DNA of 51,970 bases, taken from Chrysophaeum taylorii (taxonomy: Eukaryota; Sar; Pelagophyceae; Pelagomonadales; Pelagomonadaceae). The number at the start of each line of letters is the position of its first letter. The first letter of the stretch is position 1. The notes beneath the pieces were generated by a model. That model ran no database searches and was not told where the DNA came from. It worked only from the letters and a program-made list of their open reading frames with translations. Location: assembly GCA_029834535.1 (NCBI GenBank), contig JAQMWT010000530.1, forward strand, positions 1 to 51,970, given 5' to 3'. Position numbers and translations under genes: made by a program. Shown in pieces: positions 1 through 25,756 of the stretch.

Positions 1-123
1 GATCGACAACGATCGACTTCGGCGAATGATGGAGGAATCCATGCGGGCGCATGCTCGAGGGCACGGCCAACCTCTCCGAATGCTACGCGTGTTACGCCCG
101 ACGATGATGACGCTGTATCGGCA

Positions 124-931
124 GTGACCGACGATCAGCCACCGCGAAGTCGACCGGAGCCTACCCCGCACCATCATACTGACCCCGGTTCGGCGCGTCC
201 TCGTGACGAAGAAGAATTACTTCGTGTCAAGAAGGGAGCTGCTGGTATGACACGTATCACGCTTTCGAATCTCACGGGGCAAATTACAAGGACCGTGATG
301 AGGTGGACGCGTGGTGGATGCAATTGCGGCGTATGATGGAAGGCAAGATTGATAAACCCTCAATAGCGATGAATGTGATTGGAGGCGAGTATCAACTCGC
401 CCCTATGGAAGCTTATCGCAAGTGGGAGTTGAACGGCCGCTGATGTGGAAAAAGTACAAGGAAGGCACCATCACATTAAAAGAGTTGCGCCAGCATGATG
501 AGGACTCTCTGGATGCTATGCAAGAGGCGACGAAGCTTCCTTGTCCACCTCGGGCTACGGTTGAGGAGCTTACAAGTGAATGGTTCAATTTACGGCAAGG
601 AATTTGTCATTGAATAAGTATATCGCGCGATGGGTGCAGAAATTCGGCCAGTGGAGAGCAATGTCAGGTCGCGATACTGATCCGGCTGCGTTCCGTTCGC
701 ACTTATTGCTGGTCTCAATTCTGAGCGCTTGCGGACGAGCGTCGAACTTGCTCAGGCCTCACCGCATATGAAAGCATCTACTCACCCTCAACGATGTCAT
801 TCAATTGACCATCCAAATTTCCAAGATTCTGGAAGCCAACCCTACTGCCAACATCGAAGAGGCGATTAAGAAGGAGAAAGGAAAGGAGCACGCACCACGG
901 ATGAGGAGAGAAGCAGCAGCAGAGGCAGCAG
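124..931 (+). pseudogene. gypsy gag remnant, N-terminal part
   Basis: Short open stretches in all three frames (for instance 124-336, 422-613, 580-771) run up to the clear nucleocapsid part at 932. Pieces read as charged, tryptophan-containing, helical sequence typical of a gag capsid region, but no single frame spans it and no diagnostic motif is visible. I assign it to gag only from its position upstream of the Cys/His knuckle in the same orientation. It could equally include the element's 5' untranslated leader. Confidence 0.4.
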
Positions 932-1533
932 TTGCAGCCAGTCCAACGGGTTGGTTATGTTACTGACTCGGGAGTTGGAACCTGGCTACCACAGGGGATA
1001 GATAACCATACGCGTCAAGCAATTACGACGTGCCTCAGTTGCGGCCGGCATGGTAGTTTTAACCACGACAACGGTGTGTGTCCTGTGCCGGACAATCCCT
1101 CGAGGAAGAGGCGTGCTGCTCAGACGTTGACGACTGCGGGTTTTCCAGCAACGCCAGAGGGACAGGAGCAATACCGACGGACGCTTTTAGCTGCAGCAGG
1201 ACAGGCTTCAGTGACTCAGCTAGCGCCGCGCGTTGTGCAACAGCCGCAGGTGGTCTACACAGCAGCACAGGTGCCAGGTGCAGGTCAACAGCAGCTGGTT
1301 GCAGGCACTCAGCAGCGTTTGGTTGCAGGCTCTCAACAACAGGTGGTCCGAAGGCAGCCCGCAGTGCAGCGGACCGCTCAGACCTCGGTGCGCCTGGAGG
1401 ATCTGACTACGGCTCTCAACACGATGAACTTGATTCGTCAGGCACAGCAGACGGCTCCGCCGGGTAGAGGCGACAGTCTCAGAGAGCGAACCCTAGCCAG
1501 CACAATGATGGTGTCGCCGCTCAGTGGCTTGAA
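932..1533 (+). pseudogene. gypsy gag nucleocapsid region with Cys/His knuckle
   Basis: Open frame with a Cys/His cluster near residue 35: CLSC, a histidine eight residues after the second cysteine, then a cysteine five residues further on. This is a variant of the retroviral CCHC knuckle (usual spacing C-x2-C-x4-H-x4-C) with a longer middle spacer. It is followed by a basic stretch and then by a Gln/Val/Ala-rich tail full of QQ repeats, a low-complexity linker common at the end of algal and fungal gag proteins. The frame is good to about position 1480. The sensible continuation (HNDGVAAQWLEVLGED) is then in another frame, so there is a shift between about 1440 and 1500. RNA binding is inferred from the knuckle only. 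Confidence 0.6.
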
Positions 1534-3170
1534 GTGCTTGGCGAAGATCAGGATGACACTAAGCGAGCGGACTACTGCACTGTGCAGTATTCTGAGCTCA
1601 TGGAGGGCAACGTGTATGACGATGACGAGGTTGGGGGCGATGATGATAGCTTCTCTGCAGAAGGCTATTCCCCTGGTGACCCCATGGAACCTCCTTCCTT
1701 TTTGGTCATCACTGAAGATGCATGGGTGGAGGAGCAGGAGCAAAGTACCGAAGTGACTGGAGTTGCATCTAGAGTTCTTTCGGAAGACGAAGATAATCGT
1801 GACGAATTGGGGTATACGATTGTTCGTGTGGGACAAGATACCTTGGTTGCCATGGATATAGTGCCACCGAGGAACGACTGTGCCGAGCGTTATGTTGCTC
1901 ACCCTTCCATCTCTTCGGATTTCGAGAATTTCTGCCCTCAGACTGCGTTGAATATCACTCAGGATCCCGACCATCGTGAAAATAAAGCCGTAAGGTACGA
2001 TGGCACGAGATCCGCCTCTTTGACGTATGTGCCTGTGGCTATCTCTTCGCAAGATGGTTCGAAATATTCCATCATCGCTGCCGGTTTGGATGGCATGGCT
2101 GATTCCCCCTACATCGATCACCGCTTGTATCGCAAACTTGATCGTGACGGCAAAATCATCTATCGTCAGCCACTCCCTACTATTCGTACTCTAAATGGAT
2201 CAGGAGGTTCGGGAGCTGCTATTCGAGAATGGGTCATTCTCCGGATCTCCTTGGTGCCGACGACATCCATGCTGCTCATGTTCTTCGTTGGTCAAACGAA
2301 TGGGCAGTTACTATTAGGAGCACGAGAATTACGACTCTTGGGTACGATTTTGGATTATGCGACAGAGCTCATCTTTCGGCGTTCTGAAGTGACCATTGGA
2401 GTTCTCAAGAATCGGACTTCCGCCTCGCCACAAGACCAGCATGGAATTGTCCTTTACAATGATGCATTCGATGCGACTCCGCAGGTAGTGCAGATGTTCC
2501 CGACAGCTAAGCTTGCTGTGCAATACGGAAATATCCAAACTTGGACGCCAGTTGGTAAACCGTGGAGTTATGACAGTCTATTGCGTTCTATTCGTATCAG
2601 AGCGAATCACCATCACATTCCTCCCGGTGATCAGACTGCTGGAAAAGCTGAAGACCAACTTGAATGCCCTGCAGACGAGGAAGATATCATCCCTCATTTC
2701 GCGTACGTGACGAGTACTCGATTTCTTCTTCCAAACCAACCGTACTTCTTGGAGATGGAGTGCGATGTGCCGCTGGAAAAGAGTCACGTATTCCGACCTT
2801 ATCGGTCACTCCTCAAAGATCTCCGCCTTGTACCTGGTTCCTATTCATCGTATTGTGCTGATGAGCCCAACGAAGTTCATGTGGCTGTGGAGCACATTGG
2901 TGACGAACCCATTGGTATCGACCCCGAAGTCCCGGTGGTCGAAGGCGAGATCATGCCGCATGAAGGATGTGTCAACATGCAGCTAGAAGCCACTGATGAC
3001 GTGTGTCATGCCACTCTTACGGCTGCTGTTGACGACGATGAAGTCGAGGAGGATGTCTTGAGTGACAGACCTCCTCCTCAGCCACCTCCAGATGAAGAAG
3101 TGAAAAAAACACCAGAAATGGAGATGGAGGCGACTGTTAAGGAGCTGCTATCTAAGCACGCCTCCTTGGT
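1534..3170 (+). pseudogene. gypsy protease-like region
   Basis: A long open frame upstream of the methyltransferase. Near 2083-2127 it reads GLDGMADSPYIDHRLY. This sits where a retropepsin active site (D-S/T-G-A then hydrophobic) is expected, about 75 residues before an LLGARELRLL segment (about 2308) that matches the family's C-terminal ILGxDxL signature. The catalytic triplet is altered to D-G-M rather than DSG/DTG, so the enzyme may be dead, or this lineage may use a divergent site. The rest of the frame is acidic and proline-rich near 3050-3110 and leads without a stop into methyltransferase motif I. The protease identity rests on position and two motifs. Confidence 0.55.
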
Positions 3171-3179
3171 TTGGATACC

Positions 3180-4130
3180 CATCACCTACACCTTTGTCGT
3201 CGTCTACTTTGCTGGCGCTGGAGGATCAACGTTGGGTATCCGGCGATGCAATGAGCTATATGGCAGTTCATTTCGCATTGTCCTGGCTTTGGATGCTTGT
3301 CCTCAAGCCCGAGCCACCTTTGAACTCAATTTTCCGAAGATTCCCTATGTTTTGCATGAGTTGGGGAAATCTCATCGTCGTACATACGACTTGGTGTTGT
3401 CGTATTTACACTCAGATTTTGGAAGCACTCTTATTTTCACGCCAGTCCGCCGTGTATCTATGGATCGACTGCCAATTTGCACTACAGGGACGCACGCAAG
3501 GGCGCTACTATTACTTCTTGGGTCCTGCGTCATTTCCGCAACGCACCTTATGTGATTGGACGATGGACGCTCGAGCAGGAACCATCAGTGATCCCTTTTG
3601 TGCATCACCAATTTTATGTGCCGCGTATTGTTGATTTCTATAGTATCACGCCAGAGCTGCTGTGCTCGCGCACGCGCTACTTACTTGCAATGTTCGCTTG
3701 GAACTGCCGTTATTATCGCGTGTACCACCGAATTTACGGGACCGTTTTGGCCCAGCGTTGGGATTTACAGGTGGTCACCCGCTCATTATAGTGAACAGTT
3801 TCTCATCTACGCGCCCGGCTATCGGCCCTGCCTTCACGGTGACGCGCAATAAGCTCCGCTTAGGACCTCATTTCTCGAACACCCGTCCACTCACGTTGCA
3901 GATGCACCAGGAAATTATGACCGTTCCTGCTACGTGGCAATGGGGTGCGACAGTTTTCGAGACAGTAGCTATGAAGATGCTTGGCAGTATGGTGCCACCC
4001 GCGACTATGACGCGGATTGCGCTAGCAGTGCACAATTCGTTTGACCCTTCACTTCGAAATTTGGGTAAGTTGCGGAATATTGCGACGACTACGCTAGCCC
4101 AACCTGATCACCATATTCTACGGTTTTCAC
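3180..4130 (+). pseudogene. C5-cytosine DNA methyltransferase domain inside the gypsy polyprotein
   Basis: This segment lies between protease and RT and carries the ordered motifs of a DNA (cytosine-5) methyltransferase, which transfers a methyl group from S-adenosylmethionine to cytosine. Motif I (FAGAGG, 3208-3225) is followed by a motif II-like acidic residue in LALDACPQA. Motif IV ASPPC, with the catalytic cysteine at 3453-3455, is in a second frame. Motif VI appears as LEQEPSV (usual ENV altered), and motif VIII as SRTRYLL. A third frame then gives RPAIGPAFTV, RPLTLQMHQE and motif X LGSMVPP (ending about 4010). Two frameshifts (about 3360-3430 and 3690-3705) break it, so this copy is a pseudogene. 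All motifs are in the right order and spacing, which makes chance unlikely. Retrotransposon-borne DNMTs are known from dinoflagellates and the charophyte Klebsormidium. A role in methylating its own DNA copies would be inference. Confidence 0.85.
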
Positions 4131-4178
4131 CTTTTGCTGTAGAGTCGCGCATTCCAACGCTCGACCCTGCCACTCGAA

Positions 4179-6053
4179 GTGTATCATGGATTGCGCCCGA
4201 TGAACTCTATTCTCCTGCGAGTCCTGCACCATCAGCTGCTGCCACCACCACCCCGCCACCACCTTCGGTTACATCGCCTGGGACGGCTTCATCTTTGCAG
4301 GGGCACCGTCGCCACTGCTGTTATGCAGAGCAACCAAGTTGATAACCAGCCCTCCGCAACTGCTGAAGAAGAAGGCACCGCGAAAGAGCGACCAGCGTAT
4401 TTCAATACGTACGACGTTCCGTGGGCGGACGCGCCTCACGACGAACATGGTCAACCTTCACCGGTGATGCCTCCTCATTTAGCGGATCAGGAGAGCATGC
4501 AGGTCATCCCTCCGACCGTCGCGCAGGTCGAAGAGGTGATGACTGAATTGGGTATTACAGAGCATCCTGCTTTAGATGATGACGAGAAGCTGATGATGAA
4601 GCATTTAATCTCGTATTCGTGGGCATTTTTCGATGATGTGATGAGACCTGTTGATTCACCTGAAGTGACGCTCCGGTTCAAAGAAGAGAACCCGACTCCC
4701 GTCAAACTCTCGCCATATCGGTTGTCGAAAGAAAAGATTGAATGTTTGCGGATGCAGATTGAAGCATGGACCCGAGACGGAGTTATTCGTCCCGCGAATT
4801 CTCCATGGGGTTTCCCTATTTTGATGTTGCCTAAGAAAGGTGCTGAGCCTGGCACTTCCAATGCTTACAGAGCAGCTGTCGACCTACGGCGCCTCAATGC
4901 ATTGCTCAAGGATGATAGCTGGCCGAGTGTGAGCATGGCTGACGCGTTGATGTTTCTCATTGACAAGTTTTGTCGTTCCAGTTTGGATATTCGTTGGGGC
5001 TATCACAATTTACGATTGTCGCTGGATGCACAAGATGTGGTCACCTTCACTAGTCCTCTGGGAGCGTACAGCTACATGCGTCTACCTTTGGGAGTCAAAC
5101 CAGCCGGAAGTTTGTTTTGCAAGCAGTTGAACACCGACTTGTCGCAATGGCTATATCGTGATCTCGTGGCATATATCGACGATATTCTCGCCGGTCACGC
5201 AGATACAAAGAATCACTTGCAGTGCCTTGTGCAAGTTATTCCCCATCTCGCCTTGAAGGGGTACAGCGCCAAGATCAAGAAGATTCATTTTATGCAAGAA
5301 GTCATTGAGTTTTTGGGTCATCTATCTACCCCGAACGGACTTCTTCCATCACCAAGATCTTTAGAAGCCATCAGACACATGCCAATTCCTGGCACTTTGT
5401 CGGATGCTGACCCTAAAGTGCGATCTGTCCTTGGAATGGGGAGCTTTTGCCGGCGTTATGTGAGGAATTTTGCGAAAGTTGCAGAGCCATTAAGACAACT
5501 GACGTTGCCGGACGTGAAATTCAAGTGGACGAAAGAGTGTCAGGGAGCTTGGGATGCCATCATCGAGGCTATTGTCACGTCGAAGGGCGTCTACCATCCT
5601 GATTACTCGTTGCCTTTTTACATTCGAACTGATGCTTCCGCGCATGGGTTGGGTGCTTACCTATTTCAAAAAGTACCAGTCGTTGACGACGATGGAAGAG
5701 AAAGAATCGAAGAGAGAGTTATCGAGTACTGGAGTCGAACCGTGCCTAAGTCGATGAGGAAGTATGATCCTCGGCGCTTGGAACTCCTCGCAGTACTCTC
5801 TGCTCTCGAAAATTTCCGATTTTATATCGAAGGTCATCAGACGAAGTTAGAGACGGATCATCGTAATTTAACGTTTCTGCGGGATTCGAATCATACGTCT
5901 GGACAGTTAGCACGATGGGCTATGCGGCTTGCTGCGTTCGACCGGGAGCTCGGATACAAACCTGGAAGCTCCCCTGGCATGCGTATTCCGGATTGTCTGT
6001 CGCGCAACCCTATCGACAAATTGATCGAGAAAGATGAAGAAGGGAACCGATAA
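4179..6053 (+). CDS. gypsy reverse transcriptase and RNase H
   Basis: The best-preserved part of the element, open for over 600 codons. The meaningful part starts near 4320; the earlier residues are frame read-through. RT hallmarks in order: PYRLSKEKIE thumb-proximal helix, VDLRRLNALLKDD, SSLDIRWGYHNLRL (motif A aspartate), FTSPLGAYSYMRLPLGVKPA (motif B region), and the catalytic YIDD at 5172-5183, then FLGHLS and FCRRYVRNFAKVAEPL in the connection domain. RNase H follows with FYIRTDASAHGLGA, then LELLAVLSALENFRFYIEG, TDHRNLTFL and a closing DCLSRNP. All read as catalytically competent. Its job would be to copy element RNA into cDNA and degrade the RNA strand in virus-like particles. It can only be translated from a frame different from gag/protease in this copy. 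Confidence 0.9.
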   Translation: MYHGLRPMNSILLRVLHHQLLPPPPRHHLRLHRLGRLHLCRGTVATAVMQSNQVDNQPSATAEEEGTAKERPAYFNTYDVPWADAPHDEHGQPSPVMPPHLADQESMQVIPPTVAQVEEVMTELGITEHPALDDDEKLMMKHLISYSWAFFDDVMRPVDSPEVTLRFKEENPTPVKLSPYRLSKEKIECLRMQIEAWTRDGVIRPANSPWGFPILMLPKKGAEPGTSNAYRAAVDLRRLNALLKDDSWPSVSMADALMFLIDKFCRSSLDIRWGYHNLRLSLDAQDVVTFTSPLGAYSYMRLPLGVKPAGSLFCKQLNTDLSQWLYRDLVAYIDDILAGHADTKNHLQCLVQVIPHLALKGYSAKIKKIHFMQEVIEFLGHLSTPNGLLPSPRSLEAIRHMPIPGTLSDADPKVRSVLGMGSFCRRYVRNFAKVAEPLRQLTLPDVKFKWTKECQGAWDAIIEAIVTSKGVYHPDYSLPFYIRTDASAHGLGAYLFQKVPVVDDDGRERIEERVIEYWSRTVPKSMRKYDPRRLELLAVLSALENFRFYIEGHQTKLETDHRNLTFLRDSNHTSGQLARWAMRLAAFDRELGYKPGSSPGMRIPDCLSRNPIDKLIEKDEEGNR

Positions 6054-6064
6054 ATGAAGCTTTT

Positions 6065-6328
6065 TTGATTTTACAAGAAATCCCCACCGATGTCCCTGGC
6101 ACCGCTTGCTTCACCTTCTCTTCGGTGACGATGCCTATGCTGACGGACAGCGGACCCACCGCAACTATGGTAGCAGTTAGTACGCGACAGAACGTACAAC
6201 CGCCTCAATTCTCGTCTGAGCCAGTTGAATCCGTCGAACGTCTCCCTTTTTCGGATCAAGCGGAGGATGAGATCACTCTCGATGAGATAGCGAAAGAACA
6301 AGCTGACGGATTACTACTCGGACGTTGA
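6065..6328 (+). pseudogene. gypsy integrase N-terminal stub
   Basis: An 87-codon frame directly after RNase H. Its C-terminal residues ITLDEIAKEQADGLLLGR resemble the helix that opens gypsy integrases (pattern T-x-E-E-I-x-x-x-Q-x-x-D) just ahead of the HHCC zinc domain. The zinc domain and DDE core are absent: sequence after about 6330 belongs to something else. This copy therefore lost its integrase and 3' LTR, through a deletion or rearrangement joining it to the antisense fragment that follows. Confidence 0.5.
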
Positions 6329-6419
6329 GCGGATTTTTGTGCGTCTCAAGACAAAAAGCGAGCCCAGGAGACCACCCACAGTCTCCGAAAAGAGGCAGAA
6401 AGAAGGCCGGAGAGACCAA

Positions 6420-6968
6420 CCATATTCTCTGAGACCAACCATAGTCTCTGGCGAGGCAAAAGCTGTGCCGTGTAAGTCCGTCACCGGTCAAAATGCAAGT
6501 CGAACAGTAGCCGGCAAATTTTGCTGCTCGACGAGAAGTTTTGGTGTTCGAGATAGCCGTTGATACCCGAGAGAAACCGCACCATGGAAACTAGAGGAGA
6601 CTGACGTTTGTTCTGCGACAGCTTCTGCTGGAGAACGACGCTTAAGACCAGAAGACAAAGATCCGGACGGAGGTAGCTTCAAACGCCTACGACCAAACAT
6701 GGAGGGCTGTGAACCCTGTGTGACTGATTTTCGCCCGGATGAAATCGATGTCCTCGTCACAAACTTCGATCTCCACAGCAACAAAGTTCCTGCTGATGTA
6801 GCTGAACGAGTTTATCGTACCATTCGTGAGCGTGACCTTCGTCACCCTTGAAGTCGAGGACGACTTCATCTCAAGTAGGGGGCTCCTGTGGCAGTAACGC
6901 CCATTTCCCCCACTTGCCTGCCTGCCACCTGACTTACCCTGATTGTTGCCCTGGTATTGACCTTGCAT
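6420..6968 (-). pseudogene. possible gag/protease scrap of another LTR element
   Basis: Read on the minus strand from 6968 there is a Gln/Gly/Asn-rich stretch, then NGRYCHRSPLLEM and a hydrophobic segment with NGTINSFSYISRNFVAVEI, which loosely resembles the D-S-G-A-x-x-x-(F/Y)-I strand of a retropepsin with the active-site aspartate lost. The frame shifts around 6750. A run of nine G residues at 6966 abuts its start. The assignment is tentative because no catalytic motif survives; what is clear is that it is not a continuation of the plus-strand gypsy element. Confidence 0.25.
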
Positions 6969-7109
6969 TTATGGGGGGGGGGTCATCTCGACACCTTCAC
7001 CTGCGCTTCCACTGGACCCAATGTACCGGGCATTTGTATTGCTTTCTTGCTGTCTTCTTGATATTACCCTCTTTTTATTGTCCGATTTCGTGATGGCGTG
7101 AGGTATTAC

Positions 7110-7480
7110 TTTATTTATGTCCCTGATCGCCGACTGCGGTTGCGATGGAGGACGGTGCCTCATGAATCCTGAGCCTTGCGAGGGCATCCGCCCTCCCGGC
7201 GTAGGTTGGCACCTATTCGCCTCCCGGGCGGGCCGGTTGGCAGCCGGAACGTTCGCAGTGGGACGGGGTATGGCCGGGGGGCGAAGACGGAAGGTTATCG
7301 ACGAGTTGGTTGTCAGTCACATCGCGGTCTCCTCGTCGCATTGCGACAAGCTTGATGGTCACTTTCCGCCGACCGACCTTTCGGCGCTCCTCGTCTACAG
7401 GCCCGTGATTCCGGACTGGCTCCTGTCGGTCCGGCCTGGCTCCCATGCTCGGGAGAGGTCTGAAGTTAGTTAGTTAGTTA
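7110..7480 (+). mobile_element. SINE-like element, copy 1 (full length, (TTAG)n tail)
   Basis: The repeat starts at the conserved CCCTGATCGCCGAC (7121), runs about 345 bp and ends in AAG plus four TTAG units. It is bounded by a perfect 12-bp direct repeat, GTGAGGTATTAC, at 7098-7109 and 7481-7492: the target-site duplication. Eleven extra bases lie between the left duplication and the conserved start. Five further copies occur in this window with the same 3' end. The 77-90 codon ORFs inside it (both strands) are by-products of a GC-rich sequence. No convincing A and B boxes for RNA polymerase III are visible, so SINE here means short, non-coding, and with non-LTR-type ends. Confidence 0.85.
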
Positions 7481-7654
7481 GTGAGGTATTACGCTGATAT
7501 CGGGCGTGTGGTGGTTTCACTCGCGGTTCATGTAGGGAGAAGGGGTTGTTGAGGCCCCCGGTCCGGCCAGGAGGGGCGGGTATCTGAGAAAACAACTACA
7601 CTCCAACTGCCTTGAACTGCTTTACCAACTCAACAAGTGCGAACAATTTGTTCA

Positions 7655-7887
7655 CCGGAACGTTCGCAGTGGGACGGGGTATGGCCGGGGGGCGCAGACG
7701 GAAGGTTATCGACGAGTTGGTTGTCAGTCACATCGCGGTCTCCTCGTCGCATGGCGGCAAGCTTGATGATCACTCTCCGCCGACCCACCTTTCGGCGCCC
7801 CTCGTCTACAGGCCCGTGATTCCGGACTGGCTCCTGTCGGTCCGGCCTGGCTCCCATGCTCGGGAGAGGTCTGAAGTTAGTTAGTTA
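7655..7887 (+). mobile_element. SINE-like element, copy 2 (5'-truncated)
   Basis: The same family as copy 1, but beginning internally at CCGGAACGTTCGCAG, so about 130 bp of the 5' end is missing, while the 3' end and a short TTAG tail are retained. Differing 5' breakpoints with a fixed 3' end are the usual result of target-primed reverse transcription. I find no convincing target duplication. The 165 bp between copies 1 and 2 (7493-7654) has no recognisable gene. Confidence 0.8.
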
Positions 7888-7960
7888 TTTCATTCTTCGA
7901 ATCTACCAGTTTATACATGAGTTCTACTCTGGCTCCTTCTGCTCCTGCTCCTTCCAGAAT

Positions 7961-9287: not shown

Positions 9288-9576
9288 TCCTTACTACTAA
9301 TCGACAGATGTTTGTCTGTCTGTCTATGTTGGCGGACGTTTCCGGACGGTACGTTAAAAGTGTTTGATTCGACGCAGAGAAGACCAGAGGGGAAGGACCG
9401 GGGGAAGAGTCGCGGAGCCCAACGTTCGCGGTATTTTCAAACCAAAGTATAGGATGGTGATACATGCGACGACAAAGCCAAAGCCGAGCCAAACGTCCGA
9501 CGACCCAAAGTCGTAGGACACGACCAAGTCGAGGAGGTCGCCAAGTCGAACGCGGGGTGAGTCGACGGACGTAGTC

Positions 9577-9586
9577 TATTTATATA
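9577..9586 (+). promoter_or_regulatory. TATA-box-like sequence ahead of the tyrosine recombinase ORF
   Basis: TATTTATATA lies 16 bp before the ATG at 9603 in otherwise GC-rich sequence. If it acts as a TATA box, the normal 25-35 bp distance would place the start of transcription at or just inside the ORF start, implying a very short or absent leader. Confidence 0.4.
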
Positions 9587-9602
9587 CGCGGATCGACAAA
9601 AC

Positions 9603-12104
9603 ATGAGCGGCGCCGCGGTTCCCAGCGGAACCATCGGGAGCGCAGGAATGTCTGGAGACCTCGACCGAGCTCGAACGAACGCGATTCGGCACTTCAATGC
9701 TTTCGCCAACGGCAAAGGCGACCGGCCCCGGGGCCCCTTCAGCGATGTGGACGTTGCGGTCTTGGCGGCGCCCAGGGTTTGGGAACGCTTCGCCTTCTAT
9801 CTCGTCGAGGAAACGAGCCTCGGAACGACGAGCATCCTCGACATTTTGGGCATCGTCCTCCGGGCCGCCAAGACCAGGTTCGACGTTCGGGGAGCGGTGG
9901 CGGACGTCAAAGACTTCTTCATGTGTCTCAACTCGGATTCGCGCTCGGAATGGGCCGTCTGGTATCGTGGTATACGCCACAACATCCAGCGCATCAAGTC
10001 TCAACGCTCGATGGCGGCGGGCGAAGATGAGGACCACACGGCTCCAGCTATCTACCCTTGCCAAATTGACCGCATTGTCCGGGCCTACGCTCGGAAGGGC
10101 AGCCAGGAATCCGCCAAGCGCATCCACACGATCCACGGCCTCTGGATGGCAGGGGCTCGATCGAGCGAGCCCAGGTGGATGGCGCTAGGAAACGTGGGAC
10201 GCTTCGACGTCCAGTTCAACGCGTGGTTCATCACGGTGCCGCAGTCCAAGGTCTCGAAGACCAAGCTCACTGCCTGGATTGCGGGGAACGGGTGGGAACG
10301 CTGCATTCTTACGTCCTTTGCCGACAACATGGTCCTCAATCGCCTCGAAGTCCAGGAGGACGACGGCACTCGCTGGCTCTTCCCCGACCTCGTCAACACC
10401 GACAGCTCCGCGAAGAGGATCGGGCGATACGTCAAGGACCTGTTGCCGCATTCCTCAACGGCGGCCCGAGGCTCGCGTGCTCGCAGCTTCGAAGCCGTCG
10501 AAATTACTGGCGGCGACGACAAGCCTCCCGACAACGCCTCCGCGGCTAGCTTCCGCCACGGTGTCTGCGAGTATCTTGCCGGCTCGTTGGCCCTCGAGCA
10601 CTGCGTAATGGTGACGGGACACGAGCTTCGCTCTGTCTCAGCATTCTTCGAATACTTCCGGAAGTTGAACTGCCAAGTCATGCCGGGCGCAATCATCCTC
10701 GCGGGCTGGCGCAAGCCGGCTTGGGGCCAAATACCCCGCGGTCCCGTGCCGGCGTCCATCGACGTCATCCTCGCCCTCGGCGTTGACCCCGACAAGCTCG
10801 TCGATGTCATAAAAGCCGTGCTTCAGATCGACACCCAGTACCCCGAAGAATATCAACGCGACGGGAAGCTGTGGAGCCTCATCACGGCGGCCTTCGCCAG
10901 CATCGTCATGTACTACCCCGAGCGGCAGGACGGCAATTATTTCCTGTTCGTTAACCTTAAGCTTCGAGACGCCGTCAATCATATCTTTGGTACGCAGTAC
11001 GGCGCGCCCGACGCCGTCCTTCGCCAATGGAGCCGCAAAATTCGCTCTGCGTTCGACGAGGCCAACCTTCACCTCACAGGCCGCTGGATCTCAGGCGATG
11101 AGGATCGTGAGATGGCTCGCCAGCGCAACGAAAACCGCGAGCTCCACGGAAAGGTCGATCAACTCCACGGAAAGTTTGATCAGCTGCAGATGATGGTTGG
11201 ATGCCTGCTCGATAACTTTGGAGTCGCGCAGCCAGCCCAACCACCGCAACTGCAGCCAATCGAGCCACCGGAGCAGCCACTCCTGCCGCCTCCACCGGCG
11301 CTGCCGCCTCCAGCAGCGCACAACCCCGTCGCTCCGCTTCCACCACCGCCGCCGCCTCCCGCGATGGCATCGGCGTCGGTCCCGGCCTTGGCCCCGGCCC
11401 CTGTCGTGCCTCAGCCCGAGCGGATCGTGAATGCACCAATCCCCGCACCGGCGCCCACAGCCGTTGTCGTGCCCCCGCCCACGCCGGCGGCAGTCATGCC
11501 GCCTTTGGTCATGCAATCTCGAGGCCCTCTCCCACCCTCCGTCTTCCCGGCCTGCACTCACGCGACCGCTCCTCCAACAGCCAACAACATGCTCGTGCGT
11601 TCCAGCGCAGCACCCTCATTCGACCTCGACAAACTCAGTGGCGTCGCCGCCGTGGATGTCGTTGTCGGGTGGTTAGGACATAAATTGCCTCCCACCATGA
11701 CACGCCAGGACAAGAGACGCTGCGAGAATCTGCTCAAGTATGTCAGGTTTATGGGAACCGACGCCGAAATCAAGGGATTGGCATCGTCGAACATGGAAAT
11801 TGGCAAAAAGCGCGCACTTGCCACCAAACTCCTCGGCTTCGTACGCCGCTACCTTGCGATGTTGTACATGAAGCACAAGAACCCATCGGATCCGATGCCC
11901 AAGGCCTTCGAAGCGAAGGGCGGCATGAAGGCCAACTACATCGACGACCGAGTCAGTCAGATCTCCAAACTCCCCGGAATCTCCCGCCGGAATTTCCCAA
12001 TCTCAAGAGCAAACTTCCACAATTTCCGAAAGGAGATCGACGACACGTTCGACCCCGATTTCGCCCCCGCTGCCAAACGGCCGCGCATCGCGAGCAGCAA
12101 CTAA
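9603..12104 (+). CDS. tyrosine recombinase (Crypton-like integrase), intact 833-codon ORF
   Basis: An uninterrupted frame with a tyrosine-recombinase core. I place the catalytic residues at Arg186 (GARSSEP, box I), Lys216-219 (SKVSK beta-hairpin), Arg318 (SFRHG, box II; the usual HxxR histidine is absent), His340 (VTGHELRS) and the nucleophile Tyr351 (FFEYFRK). Such enzymes cut and rejoin DNA through a 3'-phosphotyrosine. After the core come a short coiled coil (about 500-540, NENRELHGKVDQLHGKFDQL), a Pro/Ala-rich linker (about 545-665), and a basic C-terminal domain (about 680-830) that could bind DNA, an arrangement reminiscent of Cryptons (recombinase plus C-terminal DNA-binding domain). 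No RT is attached, which argues against DIRS/Ngaro. The ATG is preceded by a TATA-like box. Absence of frameshifts in such a decayed neighbourhood suggests a recent arrival or selection. I did not find element ends, so a domesticated gene is the alternative. Confidence 0.75.
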   Translation: MSGAAVPSGTIGSAGMSGDLDRARTNAIRHFNAFANGKGDRPRGPFSDVDVAVLAAPRVWERFAFYLVEETSLGTTSILDILGIVLRAAKTRFDVRGAVADVKDFFMCLNSDSRSEWAVWYRGIRHNIQRIKSQRSMAAGEDEDHTAPAIYPCQIDRIVRAYARKGSQESAKRIHTIHGLWMAGARSSEPRWMALGNVGRFDVQFNAWFITVPQSKVSKTKLTAWIAGNGWERCILTSFADNMVLNRLEVQEDDGTRWLFPDLVNTDSSAKRIGRYVKDLLPHSSTAARGSRARSFEAVEITGGDDKPPDNASAASFRHGVCEYLAGSLALEHCVMVTGHELRSVSAFFEYFRKLNCQVMPGAIILAGWRKPAWGQIPRGPVPASIDVILALGVDPDKLVDVIKAVLQIDTQYPEEYQRDGKLWSLITAAFASIVMYYPERQDGNYFLFVNLKLRDAVNHIFGTQYGAPDAVLRQWSRKIRSAFDEANLHLTGRWISGDEDREMARQRNENRELHGKVDQLHGKFDQLQMMVGCLLDNFGVAQPAQPPQLQPIEPPEQPLLPPPPALPPPAAHNPVAPLPPPPPPPAMASASVPALAPAPVVPQPERIVNAPIPAPAPTAVVVPPPTPAAVMPPLVMQSRGPLPPSVFPACTHATAPPTANNMLVRSSAAPSFDLDKLSGVAAVDVVVGWLGHKLPPTMTRQDKRRCENLLKYVRFMGTDAEIKGLASSNMEIGKKRALATKLLGFVRRYLAMLYMKHKNPSDPMPKAFEAKGGMKANYIDDRVSQISKLPGISRRNFPISRANFHNFRKEIDDTFDPDFAPAAKRPRIASSN

Positions 12105-20396: not shown

Positions 20397-21114
20397 GATG
20401 TATACTATAATGGTTGTGCTTCTGAAGATAGGAGGCGGGACACAACAACTAGGAGTGCCTGGTTGAAATAGGTTTTTTTCAGGGTAGTTTTTTTCAGGGT
20501 TGTGCATTTGCTCAACCGTTAGCAGCATTGGCGGCGACGGCGGTCACGGCGGCCCTGCCTCTGAACCAGTCACATCTCTCTACCCCAAACACTCGTTCCG
20601 CCCTCTTCCCAACCTACGTGCACTGCGCTCATTTTGCCGCCCCCTCCGTATTACGCCTCTCTTGCGTCTCATCCCACCATGCGCTCCTCTGCGCACCTTT
20701 GCTGTCTCCTCCGTTCTCCGCCTCTCTTGCACCTCATCCTACCATGCGCTCTTTTTGTCGCTCTCACCACGCCTCTCACTGCGTGACCGCCTCTTCCGGC
20801 TTTCTCCCGTCTGCCTTGCTATTTTCCTTCTTGCGCCATCGCCTTCCTCTGCGGTTGTCTTTGGCCTTCTCTTCTTTTGTGTTTCTCTTCCTTTGTGCGA
20901 TCATCCATTATGGCTCTCTGAGCCTGGGAGTTGCTAGCCATGTGTGCGGCCGCCGTGATGCCGCCTTCGTTTCTTCTGGCTTTCTTGTTTACAGCTTTCA
21001 ATTGGCGCTGCGCAGCGCCCGTTTCGGCGCTGCCTGGGAATCGCGACGGATTTCTTTTTCTGATCCTTTCCTTCTTGCACTTTTCCGCGGCACGAACCTT
21101 GCTGGCCTCCACCC
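20397..21114. other. pyrimidine-rich spacer, possibly LINE-A 5' untranslated region
   Basis: No credible gene. The stretch 20600-20900 is C/T-rich and contains an imperfect 65-bp duplication (CGCCTCTCTTGC ... CTCATCC-ACCATGCGCTC at about 20654 and 20719). The overlapping ORFs (Ser/Leu/Phe-rich) are compositional. Because it leads straight into the endonuclease ORF it may include the LINE-A leader and promoter; that is inference. Confidence 0.4.
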
Positions 21115-23051
21115 ATGACCACCTACACCTTCCTGGGCAAAGCAATTCCCACTCGGCGACAGGGAGAGGCCACTGCGAGCGGCTATAGGGTGTGGCTCCA
21201 CAACGTAGATGCCCTTCCGACCGGAGCGCACTTCGAAGATGAGTTGATGGAATTTGTAAGCGCCGACGTCGATGTTATCCTGCTCGCTGATGTCCGGTGG
21301 ACTGATATCACGTGCCTGCGGATCCTAGAGATGCTACGCGCCCGTTGGAGTCATGAATTTTGGTGTAAGACTTGGACGAATACCGCCCATCAGGCGCCTC
21401 GCCACGGCATCTTCCTCGCGGTGCGGGCGCCATGGTCTCGCCGTGTTCTCGACGAGGCTACTGATCCGCGTCACTGGGCGCGGTATGGTGGCGTCGTGCT
21501 CAAGCGTGAGGGAGGCTCTTCGCTGGCCATCGTGGGTGTCTACGCGCCACCCCTGGGGAACAGCGCCGAACGCCAGTGGCAAGAGACACAACTCCGTGCC
21601 TTGAGTTCTGCATGTCGCACCTGGACGGTGTACGATGTCCTCCGCACCGACCTCGAGAAGACGACCGTGCACCTTGAAATTCTGGGTACGCCTGCTATAC
21701 TTGCGGGCAACTGGAACGTCACCTGGGACACTGGAGCTCGTGTTACTGACCTCGACGGCGACCCCAAGCGACACCACCTTGAGTGGATGCGCTGGTTCGG
21801 TGCGAGTACCGTTGACCCGTGGGTGAATTTGTATTACACCCGCGCTCACAAGCCAACCCCCACCCTCGGACGCCGCAATGCTTCCTATGATATGGACATT
21901 TTTGTGGGTCGCCGCAGCATTGTTGCGTCCACTCTCGTTCGTGCGAGTGTTCTAGCCGGACACTCAATTGGAGACCGACCGCCGTCCAACTCGGGACACT
22001 GGCCAATAGCCGTGGAGCTCAATCCGGAAAGTGTCCTTGGGGTCGATGAAGCTGCGCTCCGGACTCCTACCAAGGCACTTAATCCTACCGCCTTCGCCGT
22101 CCGAAATTCTGGGTACGCCTGCTATACTTGCGGGCGACTGGAACGTCACCTGGGACCCTGGAGCTCGTGTTACTGACCTCGACGGCGACCCCAAGCGACA
22201 CCACCTTGAGTGGATGCGCTGGTTCGGTGCGAGTACCGTTGACCCGTGGGTGAATTTGTATTACACCCGCGGTCACAAGCCAACCCCCACCCTCGGACGC
22301 CGCAATGCTAACTACGATATGGACTTTTTTCTGGCTCGCCGCAGCATTGTTGCGTCCACTCTCGTTCGTGCGAGTGTTCTAGCCGGACACTCAATTGGAG
22401 ACCGACCGCCGTCCAACTCGGGACACTGGCCAATAGCCGTGGAGCTCAATCCGGAAAGTGTTCTTGGGGTCGATGAAGCTGCGCTCCGGACTGCTACCAA
22501 GGCACTTAATCCTACCGCCTTCGCCGTCCGAAATTCTGGGTACGCCTGCTATACTTGCGGGCGACTGGAACGTCACCTGGGACCCTGGAGCTCGTGTTAC
22601 TGACCTCGACGGCGACCCCAAGCGACACCACCTTGAGTGGATGCGCTGGTTCGGTGCGAGTACCGTTGACCCGTGGGTGAATTTGTATTACACCCGCGGT
22701 CACAAGCCAACTCCCACCCTCGGACGCCGCAATGCTAACTACGATATGGACTTTTTTGTGGCTCGCCGCAGCATTGTTGCGTCCACTCTCGTTCGTGCGA
22801 GTGTTCTAGCCGGACACTCAATTGGAGACCGACCGCCGTCCAACTCGGGACACTGGCCAATAGCCGTGGAGCTCAATCTGGAAAGTGTCCTTGGGGTCGA
22901 TGAAGCTGCGCTCCGGACTCCTACCAAGGCACTTAATCCTACCGCCTTCGCCGTCCGGCTCAGTGACGACGTTTCTATGGATCTCTACAAGGATTTTGTA
23001 TCTCAGCGCTGGCTGGAAGCGAACCTCACGACGCGCCTCCGCACTCTCACC
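21115..23051 (+). pseudogene. LINE-A endonuclease domain (APE type), disrupted by tandem duplication
   Basis: It opens with MTTYTFLGKA and proceeds through VDVILLADVRW, HGIFLAVRAPW, VVLKREGGSSLAIVGVYAPP, LAGNWNVTWD (the GDxN metal/catalytic motif, here GNWN), NASYDMDIFV and SGHWPIAVEL (the SDHxP motif, here with Gly for Asp in all three repeats). Such enzymes nick one DNA strand to prime reverse transcription. The 427-bp duplication shifts the frame by one base per unit, giving the observed broken frames 21115-22176, 22031-22603 and 22458-23063. Only with one unit would the frame run on into LSDDVSMDLYKDF and the RT half. Confidence 0.8.
21677..22957 (+). repeat. three tandem copies of a 427-bp segment
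   Basis: AAATTCTGGGTACGCC recurs at 21677, 22104 and 22531, and the third unit ends at 22957. The units differ at only a handful of sites (for example GCTTCCTATGATATGG in the first versus GCTAACTACGATATGG in the other two). Period 427 is not a multiple of three. Units two and three resemble each other more than unit one. Confidence 0.95.
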
Positions 23052-23059
23052 GGCTCCAA

Positions 23060-23424
23060 TTAACTAACTAACTAACTGCAGACCTCTCCCGAGCATGGGA
23101 GCCAGGCCGGACCGACAGGTGCCAGTCCGGAATCACGGGCCTGTAGACGAGGAGCGCCGAAAGGTCGGTCGGCGGAGAGTGACCATCAAGCTTGTCGCCA
23201 TGCGACGAGGAGACCGCGATGTGACTGACAACCAACTCGTCGATAACCTTCCGTCTTCGCCCCCCGGCCATACCCCGTCCCACTGCGAACGTTCCGGCTG
23301 CCAACCGGCCCGCCCGGGAGGCGAATAGGTGCCAACCTACGCCGGGAGGGCGGATGCCCTCGCAAGGCTCAGGATTCATGAGGCACCGTCCTCCATCGCA
23401 ACCGCAGTCGGCGATCAGGGTAAG
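23060..23424 (-). mobile_element. SINE-like element, copy 3 (full length) inserted in LINE-A
   Basis: Reverse orientation; its (TTAG)n tail is at the left (TAACTAACTAACTAAC). It is flanked by GGCTCCAA at 23052-23059 and 23425-23432, an 8-bp target duplication. Removing the insert and one duplication restores the LINE frame (TGSN followed by DTAVLDVLYSD). Four extra bases lie between the right duplication and the conserved 5' start. Insertion postdates LINE-A. Confidence 0.9.
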
Positions 23425-23432
23425 GGCTCCAA

Positions 23433-24991
23433 CGACACTGCCGTTCTCGATGTCTTGTACTCGGATCTTGTGGGATGTATGACAGGCGCTGCTGCTGCTG
23501 TGGCGACTGAACGACGCCGGCGCTTTGCGTCCCACGTCAGCCTGCGAGCCCAAGATGCTACGACCGAGCTACGTCCTCGTCGACGTGCCCTACGTACCTT
23601 GCTGGTCGTGTCGGGTAAAGGGGGGCGTGGTCGTCGTGCTCGCGCGTTTGCGCGACTCGCACGCGAGGACGCCCTCACACTGAACTTCCTGGGCGTTGAC
23701 CTCTCAGAGGTGGGTGATCTCATGGATGCCTCATCGGTCCCTCTCAACGACGCGGATGTCGTCGCCCGTCAACGACGTGCGGACGCTCGTGCTCGGCTTG
23801 ATCAGCATCGCGCACATTGGCAACTTCAGCTCAATCACGTGGACCCCGAGTACCGCTCACGGCTCCACGCTGCCGAGCAGGAGCTTTTACTCGAGCGCGC
23901 CGAAAAGCGCGACGATGCCGATTGCGTTCGTGTTCGTGACCTGGTTCGTACCGTCTTGGCGCGAGGCCGAAAGGGCGACAAATACGCTTCGATTGTAACC
24001 CGTGACACCGACGAATTGCGGATCCACAGCGAACCAGCGGGTGTCGCACGCGTTTTGGTTCGCCGTTTCCACAGCTGGATGGGCGGAGCTTCACGGCGTT
24101 TCTGGTACCAGACCACAGCTCTAGATGACCCGGGCCCTCGTGGCCGACATCTACGCCGACAAATTGCGGCGTTTGGTACCAACATCGACCTTGCAGCTAC
24201 GGATATCCCGGCAAAGTTCGCCCATGTACTCGACCATTTGCGCCGCAAGCCAAATGCGGATGAATCGCACTACGCAAATGTCCTGGCTCCTCTCACACGA
24301 GAGGAGTGGGACCGTAACTGGTCTACGCGGCGTTCCGGCGAAACACCAGGCCTCTCTGGTGTCACGGTTGGCATGGTTAAAGGCCTTCATCCAGGGCAAC
24401 ACGACGACCTTTTGCGTCTACTCAATGCTGCTTGCGCGACGCGTCATATATTCCCGGAGCGGAAGGAGCGGGCTATTGCTCCAATCCCGAAGATCCCTGG
24501 CAATCTGAGCGTAGAGATGTCGCGTCCTATCACGCTGTTGGACACCATCATGAAGGCCTACTGGTCGGTGATCATCGGCCGCTTTGCACCTATCTGGGAA
24601 TATTGCAAATTTTTCGATGCCGGGCAATATGGTTCACGGGCTGGCAGTGACGTTCAGACGTCACTCGCCATCGCTGTGTCATTGTCTGAATTGGCCTATG
24701 CGGACCATGTGCCCTTGCTTGCAGTTGCCCAAAACATTTCGAAGGCCTACGATAGTGTTCCTGTTTGGTTAGGCAAGGAGATGGCCTTACGTCGCTTTGG
24801 ATTACCCGACTTTTTTATCGACTACTAACTACTACCTACAACAGGATATTGGTAATCGGGCACAGGTGGTCGCAGCGTACGGCACGTCAACATCCCTCTT
24901 GGGGGACGACGAGGGATCCTTCTCCTTTGCCCGCGATACTGCCCAAGGTGCGTCCGAATCACCTAGTATCTGGTTGGCATTTTATTCTTAG
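23433..24991 (+). pseudogene. LINE-A reverse transcriptase, 3'-truncated
   Basis: It continues the LINE-A frame after the SINE. A long Arg-rich linker is followed by the RT fingers: GLSGVTVGMVKGL, RHIFPERKERAIAPIPK, SRPITLLDTIMKAYWSVI, GQYGSRAGSDVQTSLA. Motif A reads AVAQNISKAYDSVP, where the essential first aspartate of DxxxAFD is Asn, predicting no catalysis. A small duplication (ACTACTAACTACTACC, about 24823-24838) shifts the frame, after which the motif B-like AQGASESPSIWLAFYS is readable to 24991. The YxDD motif, thumb and everything beyond are absent. Confidence 0.8.
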
Positions 24992-25080: not shown

Positions 25081-25105
25081 ACATCTTAACTACTAATTGG
25101 CGTCC

Positions 25106-25756
<651 letters not shown>

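Follow-up and report, generated by a model that had tools for sequence, protein, structure and literature searches.

Retrotransposons that carry a C5-cytosine DNA methyltransferase (MTase) have been described under the names SymbioLINE-Dnmt, SymbioDIRS-Dnmt3, and KnitGypsy-Dnmt3, and purifying selection has been found on their MTases (PMC5890265). Retrotransposon DNMTs produce CG methylation in yeast, although the SymbioLINE enzyme that was tested did not (PMC5890265). The sequence-only reading of the locus presented here named dinoflagellates and Klebsormidium as hosts of such elements, as does PMC5890265. DNMT3 is assigned to elements of the "LTR Copia and DIRS" kinds in PMC12344493, with reference to PMC5890265, which itself has Gypsy. 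Antiviral roles have been proposed for accessory domains (PMC6338049). Among the matches listed in a search of open-licence literature (titles and abstract starts), none described elements of this sort from another group of algae.

The window, by which we mean the whole stretch of 51,970 nucleotides analyzed here, corresponds to contig C530, in a genome assembly of 697 contigs totaling 70.8 Mb, and its left edge falls inside a Ty3/gypsy element. The element body (1..6311, plus strand) is collinear with positions 424-6759 of an open relative, L042 (blastn, 97.7%), and its 5′ part lies beyond the contig. An open frame at 1468..3555 (plus strand) spans the end of gag, a retropepsin-like protease region, and the first piece of an MTase; the protease was recognized by eye, without a Pfam match. 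Reverse transcriptase (RT), with the YIDD motif, and RNase H follow at 4143..6053 (plus strand; Pfam RVT_1, 1.3e-13; RT_RNaseH, 6.1e-26). The stretch at 6312..6632 (plus strand) is unmatched in a fuller copy, L039, which has ~1.4 kb there that includes most of its integrase frame; the window copy thus lacks most of its integrase. After a purine-rich tract comes the 3′ LTR (TGTGGCAG...CTACA; 6887..7600, plus strand), which a nested insertion interrupts at ~7110-7480.

The sequence-only reading had called this a gypsy element, and three lines of evidence bear it out. An RT profile built from four copies is nearest to the Ty3-G Gag-Pol chain 7q5b (E 1.5e-51), the order MTase-RT-RNase H-integrase is kept in the open copies L041 and L062, and direct terminal repeats were located at two gypsy copies. 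The elements thus have the protease-RT-RNase H-integrase order, Ty3-like RT, and LTRs of the Ty3/gypsy class, with the protease identified by eye only.

Several further features of the window were recorded. The repeat nested in the 3′ LTR (7110-7480) has a short duplication, GTGAGGTATTAC, on its flanks; a 236-base part of it (7244-7479) reappears at 7655-7890 with 97% identity, and a stretch resembling it at the protein level lies near 23068-23568 on the minus strand. An 847-aa open frame at 9561-12104 looks slightly tyrosine-recombinase-like by eye and has no Pfam match at E 0.01. At 21064-23063, three consecutive frames that overlap one another repeat near-identical protein stretches, which include LGTPAILAG and HKPTPTLGRR, in the manner of a tandem duplication; the first of these frames has no Pfam match at E 0.01. 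A tandem repeat (TDRQ, minus strand) occupies 25086-25538.

We find a predicted C5-MTase domain at window positions 3172-4060, between protease and RT, in a tblastn search of the window with the 297-residue domain of L042. It is divided among three frames. Piece 1 (3172..3420, plus strand; L042 residues 1-83, 98.8%) contains FAGAGG and LALD, which we take to be motif I and the motif II region. Piece 2, in another frame (3417..3683, plus strand; residues 83-171, 98.9%), contains ASPPC, EQEPSV, and SRTR, presumably motifs IV, VI, and VIII. Piece 3, in the third frame (3677..4060, plus strand; residues 170-297, 97.7%), contains the presumed motif IX region and LGSMVPP, which we regard as motif X. 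Every motif named from the sequence alone was found, in the order and place proposed, and the split over three frames matches the earlier description of the copy as frameshifted twice. With two frameshifts inside the MTase domain and most of the integrase gone, the window copy is dead and is itself functionless. Its pieces alone fall below the cut-off of the Pfam DNA_methylase profile PF00145 (E 0.041 for profile positions 7-46 and 0.0062 for 260-321, in the correct order), and the frame at 3104-3634 has no match to this profile.

Open relatives elsewhere in the genome provide the profile and motif support for a putative C5-MTase. The PF00145 cut-off of 22 bits was passed by six of the seven gypsy proteins tested (L039, L040, L041, L042, L059, and L061). 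Scores were 28.4-31.5 bits for L039-L042 (E 1.6e-7 to 1.4e-6), 26.7 for the L059 domain alone, and 23.5 for L061, while the whole L062 frame, at 19.4, stayed under the cut-off. PHROG 116, "DNA methyltransferase," matched L042 (E 6.2e-10) and L040 (E 7.2e-12). The predicted MTase resemblance is beyond chance, because L039-L042 exceed the PF00145 cut-off and PHROG 116 matches as well. L041 and L062 (on contig C5) are single frames of at least 1965 and at least 1999 aa, respectively, each encoding MTase, RT, RNase H, and integrase; in L040 and L042, MTase and RT share one open frame. The gypsy copies at C5:546568-546906 (L062) and C5:522507-522845 each lie in one uninterrupted frame, 3063 aa long in the first and 3067 aa in the second.

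The search for intact gypsy copies that the sequence-only reading had proposed was productive. The domain was complete, without a stop or large gap, in 11 of the 29 loci read (L010-L038; L011 was excluded from this count for a large internal gap in its match), and L041 and L062 are open through the integrase. Copy numbers are rough, with candidates partly scored, single loci giving several stretches, and some contigs resembling allelic duplicates: 78 stretches matched the window's 695-aa frame, with scores for 64 of its 1106 candidates, and 132 matched a sister-subfamily MTase, with scores for 132 of 1012. Counted by hand, 21 of the latter contain a stop. Apart from the window's own, the five best matches to the 695-aa frame were 95-98% identical, and a sister group that includes C225, C384, and C311 was 62-65% identical. 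Contigs C10 and C297 share features at nearly the same coordinates, as do C25 and C521, and each pair is probably allelic. When MTase-free gypsy elements were sought in this genome among four loci taken from an RNase H search list (C388, C444, C619, and C5), none was found; all four bear a diverged form of the MTase, and three belong to one subfamily. Identity to the L042 MTase was 43% (C388), 40% (C444), and 42% (C619). Family members thus carry the same domain between protease and RT, and the Ty3/gypsy lineage has in its Pol, at this position, a compact (~290-residue) domain predicted to be a C5-MTase.

In a six-row alignment of the gypsy MTase, with subfamilies ~40-43% identical, residues F13, G15, G17, S19, D41, S92-P93-P94-C95, E135-Q136-E137, R167, R169, and V275-P276 are invariant; we assume that 13-19 correspond to motif I, 92-95 to IV, 135-137 to VI, 167 and 169 to VIII, and 275-276 to X. 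Motifs I, IV (PC), VIII (RxR), and X of C5-MTases are present, and motif VI reads EQE instead of ENV. One A copy, L014, has SPSC as motif IV.

Estimates of dN/dS (Nei-Gojobori) for the MTase were 0.056-0.058 between subfamilies A1 and A2, 0.048-0.061 between A3 and A4, and 0.054-0.083 for nine A copies against L040; these ratios are approximate, as subfamily dS is high (1.3-2.5) and saturated for A1-A3. For comparison, RT gave 0.026-0.054 (RT limits differ between the two scripts used; a partial A3-A4 RT gave 0.038), RNase H 0.024-0.025, gag/protease 0.18, and the linker 0.18-0.39, a value that is lifted by the smaller dS of the linker (0.56-0.87). If dN is considered by itself, the MTase, at 0.09-0.12, is intermediate, above RT (0.06-0.07) and below the linker (0.16-0.23). 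The MTase diverges faster than RT (43% versus 61% identity between A1 and A3); between A2 and A3, identity was 73% for RNase H and 43% for integrase. Recent copies show higher dN/dS (0.07-0.73 within A1, 0.25 for one A3 pair, and 0.32 for one A2 pair). Because dN/dS is 0.05-0.08 between diverged subfamilies, the gypsy MTase was under strong purifying selection while the lineage split.

Beyond what the sequence-only reading had covered, we find further gypsy subfamilies and a Ty1/copia family with a second MTase. A genome search with PF00145 returned 57 matches (123 of 474 candidates scored). Two are host genes, and of the other 55, eight were read (L003-L008, L043, and L044). L043 is Ty1/copia by Pfam: a single 1952-aa frame holds the MTase at 349-475 (32.1 bits, above the cut-off), rve at 1016-1110 (E 0.0061, under the Pfam cut-off), and RVT_2 at 1686-1933 (E 1.6e-38). 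Integrase precedes RT in this frame, and the terminal repeats are 89% identical over 167 bases, so that L043 has both the domain order and the LTRs of its class. The C4 copy (L003 and L058) has an RVT_2-like stretch by eye, and the remaining members were assigned by similarity of the MTase region. The copia MTase conserves PC and ENV (one copy has ENA, with the Val lost), and its motif I is degenerate. Of 28 pairs compared, 24 gave a dN/dS of 0.09-0.20 for this MTase and four gave 0.205-0.464. A genome search with the copia MTase gave 135 matching stretches (125 of 647 candidates scored). Related copies in this genome number in the hundreds and belong to two distinct types of retrotransposon; many encode an MTase that looks intact and has been kept by selection. 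For the window's own copia element (at ~33-40 kb), Pfam, which also misses weak matches, gave no MTase hit in the frames searched.

Profile-profile comparison detected no similarity between the gypsy and copia MTases (probability 0.5% and 0.1%), and two separate captures are therefore likely. A single capture common to both was set aside on this ground, which is weak evidence given the shallow alignments.

The host itself encodes a DNMT2 (PDB chain 1g55, E 3.9e-39) and a DNMT5-like protein of 2086 aa that combines a DNMT domain with an SNF2 domain; two family searches, in which candidates were partly scored and exons can be missed, found no further non-transposon DNMT in the genome. DNMT5a has been reported from pelagophytes, haptophytes, and diatoms, among others (PMC9998398). 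The genome also has 84 light-harvesting complex (LHC) matches; a single one was compared with PDB, and it was similar to antenna proteins of the red lineage. Together with DNMT5, this points to an algal host that does not fit Klebsormidium and that, with a genome of 70.8 Mb, is hardly a dinoflagellate, which bears on the instance in another lineage that the sequence-only reading had considered.

We looked for a footprint of methylation in CpG content. CpG observed/expected was 1.00-1.07 in the MTase elements (gypsy, 1.03-1.07) versus 1.26-1.45 in five host loci; the window's copia, with no MTase detected, gave 0.97, so the MTase elements are not lower. The lower CpG of elements relative to host loci is a weak sign of methylation, and the window's copia speaks against it. 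The CpG transition excess between copies was 1.23 in the first 14 gypsy A copies, 1.30 in 8 copia copies, and 1.0 in 3 A3 copies, with corresponding transversion ratios of 1.16, 1.03, and 0.94, respectively. As the transition excess is just 1.0- to 1.3-fold, there is no clear scar from long-lasting CpG methylation. CpG depletion was therefore not retained as a clear footprint.

The window holds a decayed gypsy copy from a selected, MTase-bearing lineage, and we consider it reasonably probable that the enzyme of this lineage methylates DNA of the element itself, along the lines suggested from the sequence alone. The MTase would be synthesized and packaged alongside RT and integrase, and would then act on the new double-stranded cDNA, or on the site of insertion, such that fresh copies would already bear methylation on entering the genome. 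DNMT5, a maintenance-type enzyme elsewhere and the sole other DNMT with a likely DNA substrate found in this host, could then maintain the mark.

Three observations speak against methylation of cDNA, namely the slight CpG decay, the EQE of gypsy motif VI, and the degenerate motif I of copia. The same observations favor the main alternative, an unlikely one in our judgment, in which the C5-MTase fold has been kept but acts on RNA, either the genomic RNA of the element or the tRNA that primes it, or serves as a nucleic-acid-binding module. RNA methylation was likewise raised for SymbioLINE, which left yeast DNA unmethylated (de Mendoza 2018, PMC5890265). Against this alternative, the catalytic Cys, the Glu, and RxR are invariant across 40-43% identity, and the matched profiles are those of DNA MTases, although DNMT2-type enzymes have the same fold. 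It is less probable still that the MTase mainly targets the genome of the host as a whole, where it would silence rivals or alter chromatin: the 78, 132, and 135 matching stretches stand against just two non-transposon DNMT genes found, but a position inside Pol suggests packaging with RT. A chance resemblance or functionless passenger fragment, to which the frameshifted, sub-threshold window copy might point, is very improbable, since open copies exceed the cut-off, three libraries concur, and selection has been purifying; a chance match is ruled out by the open copies and selection.

DNA methylation is usually a weapon of the host against transposons. It is therefore a paradox that some elements encode a methyltransferase themselves and conserve it. 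We raise, quite tentatively, the reading that two LTR superfamilies each captured a C5-MTase and retained it under selection, and that together these enzymes may supply the sole de novo cytosine methylation in this genome, the parasite writing the mark and DNMT5 copying it. The genome would add a further host beyond the dinoflagellates and Klebsormidium of PMC5890265, in which such elements come from two LTR superfamilies and a DNMT of maintenance type is present. In such a host, the seeding of the host methylome by transposons would become directly testable.

Protein searches for relatives outside this genome, over 1356 candidates, 2675 candidates, and the 8000 with the most words in common, found none. 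Scans likewise found no relatives on viral contigs (gypsy MTase, copia MTase, and gypsy RT) or in prokaryotes (copia MTase). All of these depend on short shared words and can miss distant relatives. Phage matches were partial (best E 7e-7 for copia and 6e-4 for gypsy), and the best PDB profile matches of the copia MTase were prokaryotic MTases (E 0.0053). No DNMT3 chain was retrieved by either MTase at E ≤ 10 in these PDB profile searches, for which the host DNMT2 match to 1g55 served as positive control.

Among described systems, KnitGypsy-Dnmt3 of Klebsormidium nitens is similar in being an LTR Gypsy element with a C5-MTase inside the Pol polyprotein under purifying selection (PMC5890265). 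Its repeats are DIRS-like and its domain is Dnmt3-related (PMC5890265), whereas the elements described here have direct terminal repeats at two copies, and their MTase was not placed near DNMT3 by any PDB search. DIRS elements with Dam-like N6-adenine MTases also carry an MTase as a retroelement accessory domain, but that enzyme is structurally unrelated to the C5-MTase (PMC5890265). SymbioDIRS-Dnmt3 and SymbioLINE-Dnmt of Symbiodinium are DIRS and LINE elements, whereas those found here are Ty3/gypsy and Ty1/copia. Nevertheless, hundreds of retrotransposon copies with C5-MTases, from more than one capture, in a host that encodes DNMT5 and DNMT2 are described for Symbiodinium (PMC5890265), and the genome studied here is similar in these respects, with a second capture likely.
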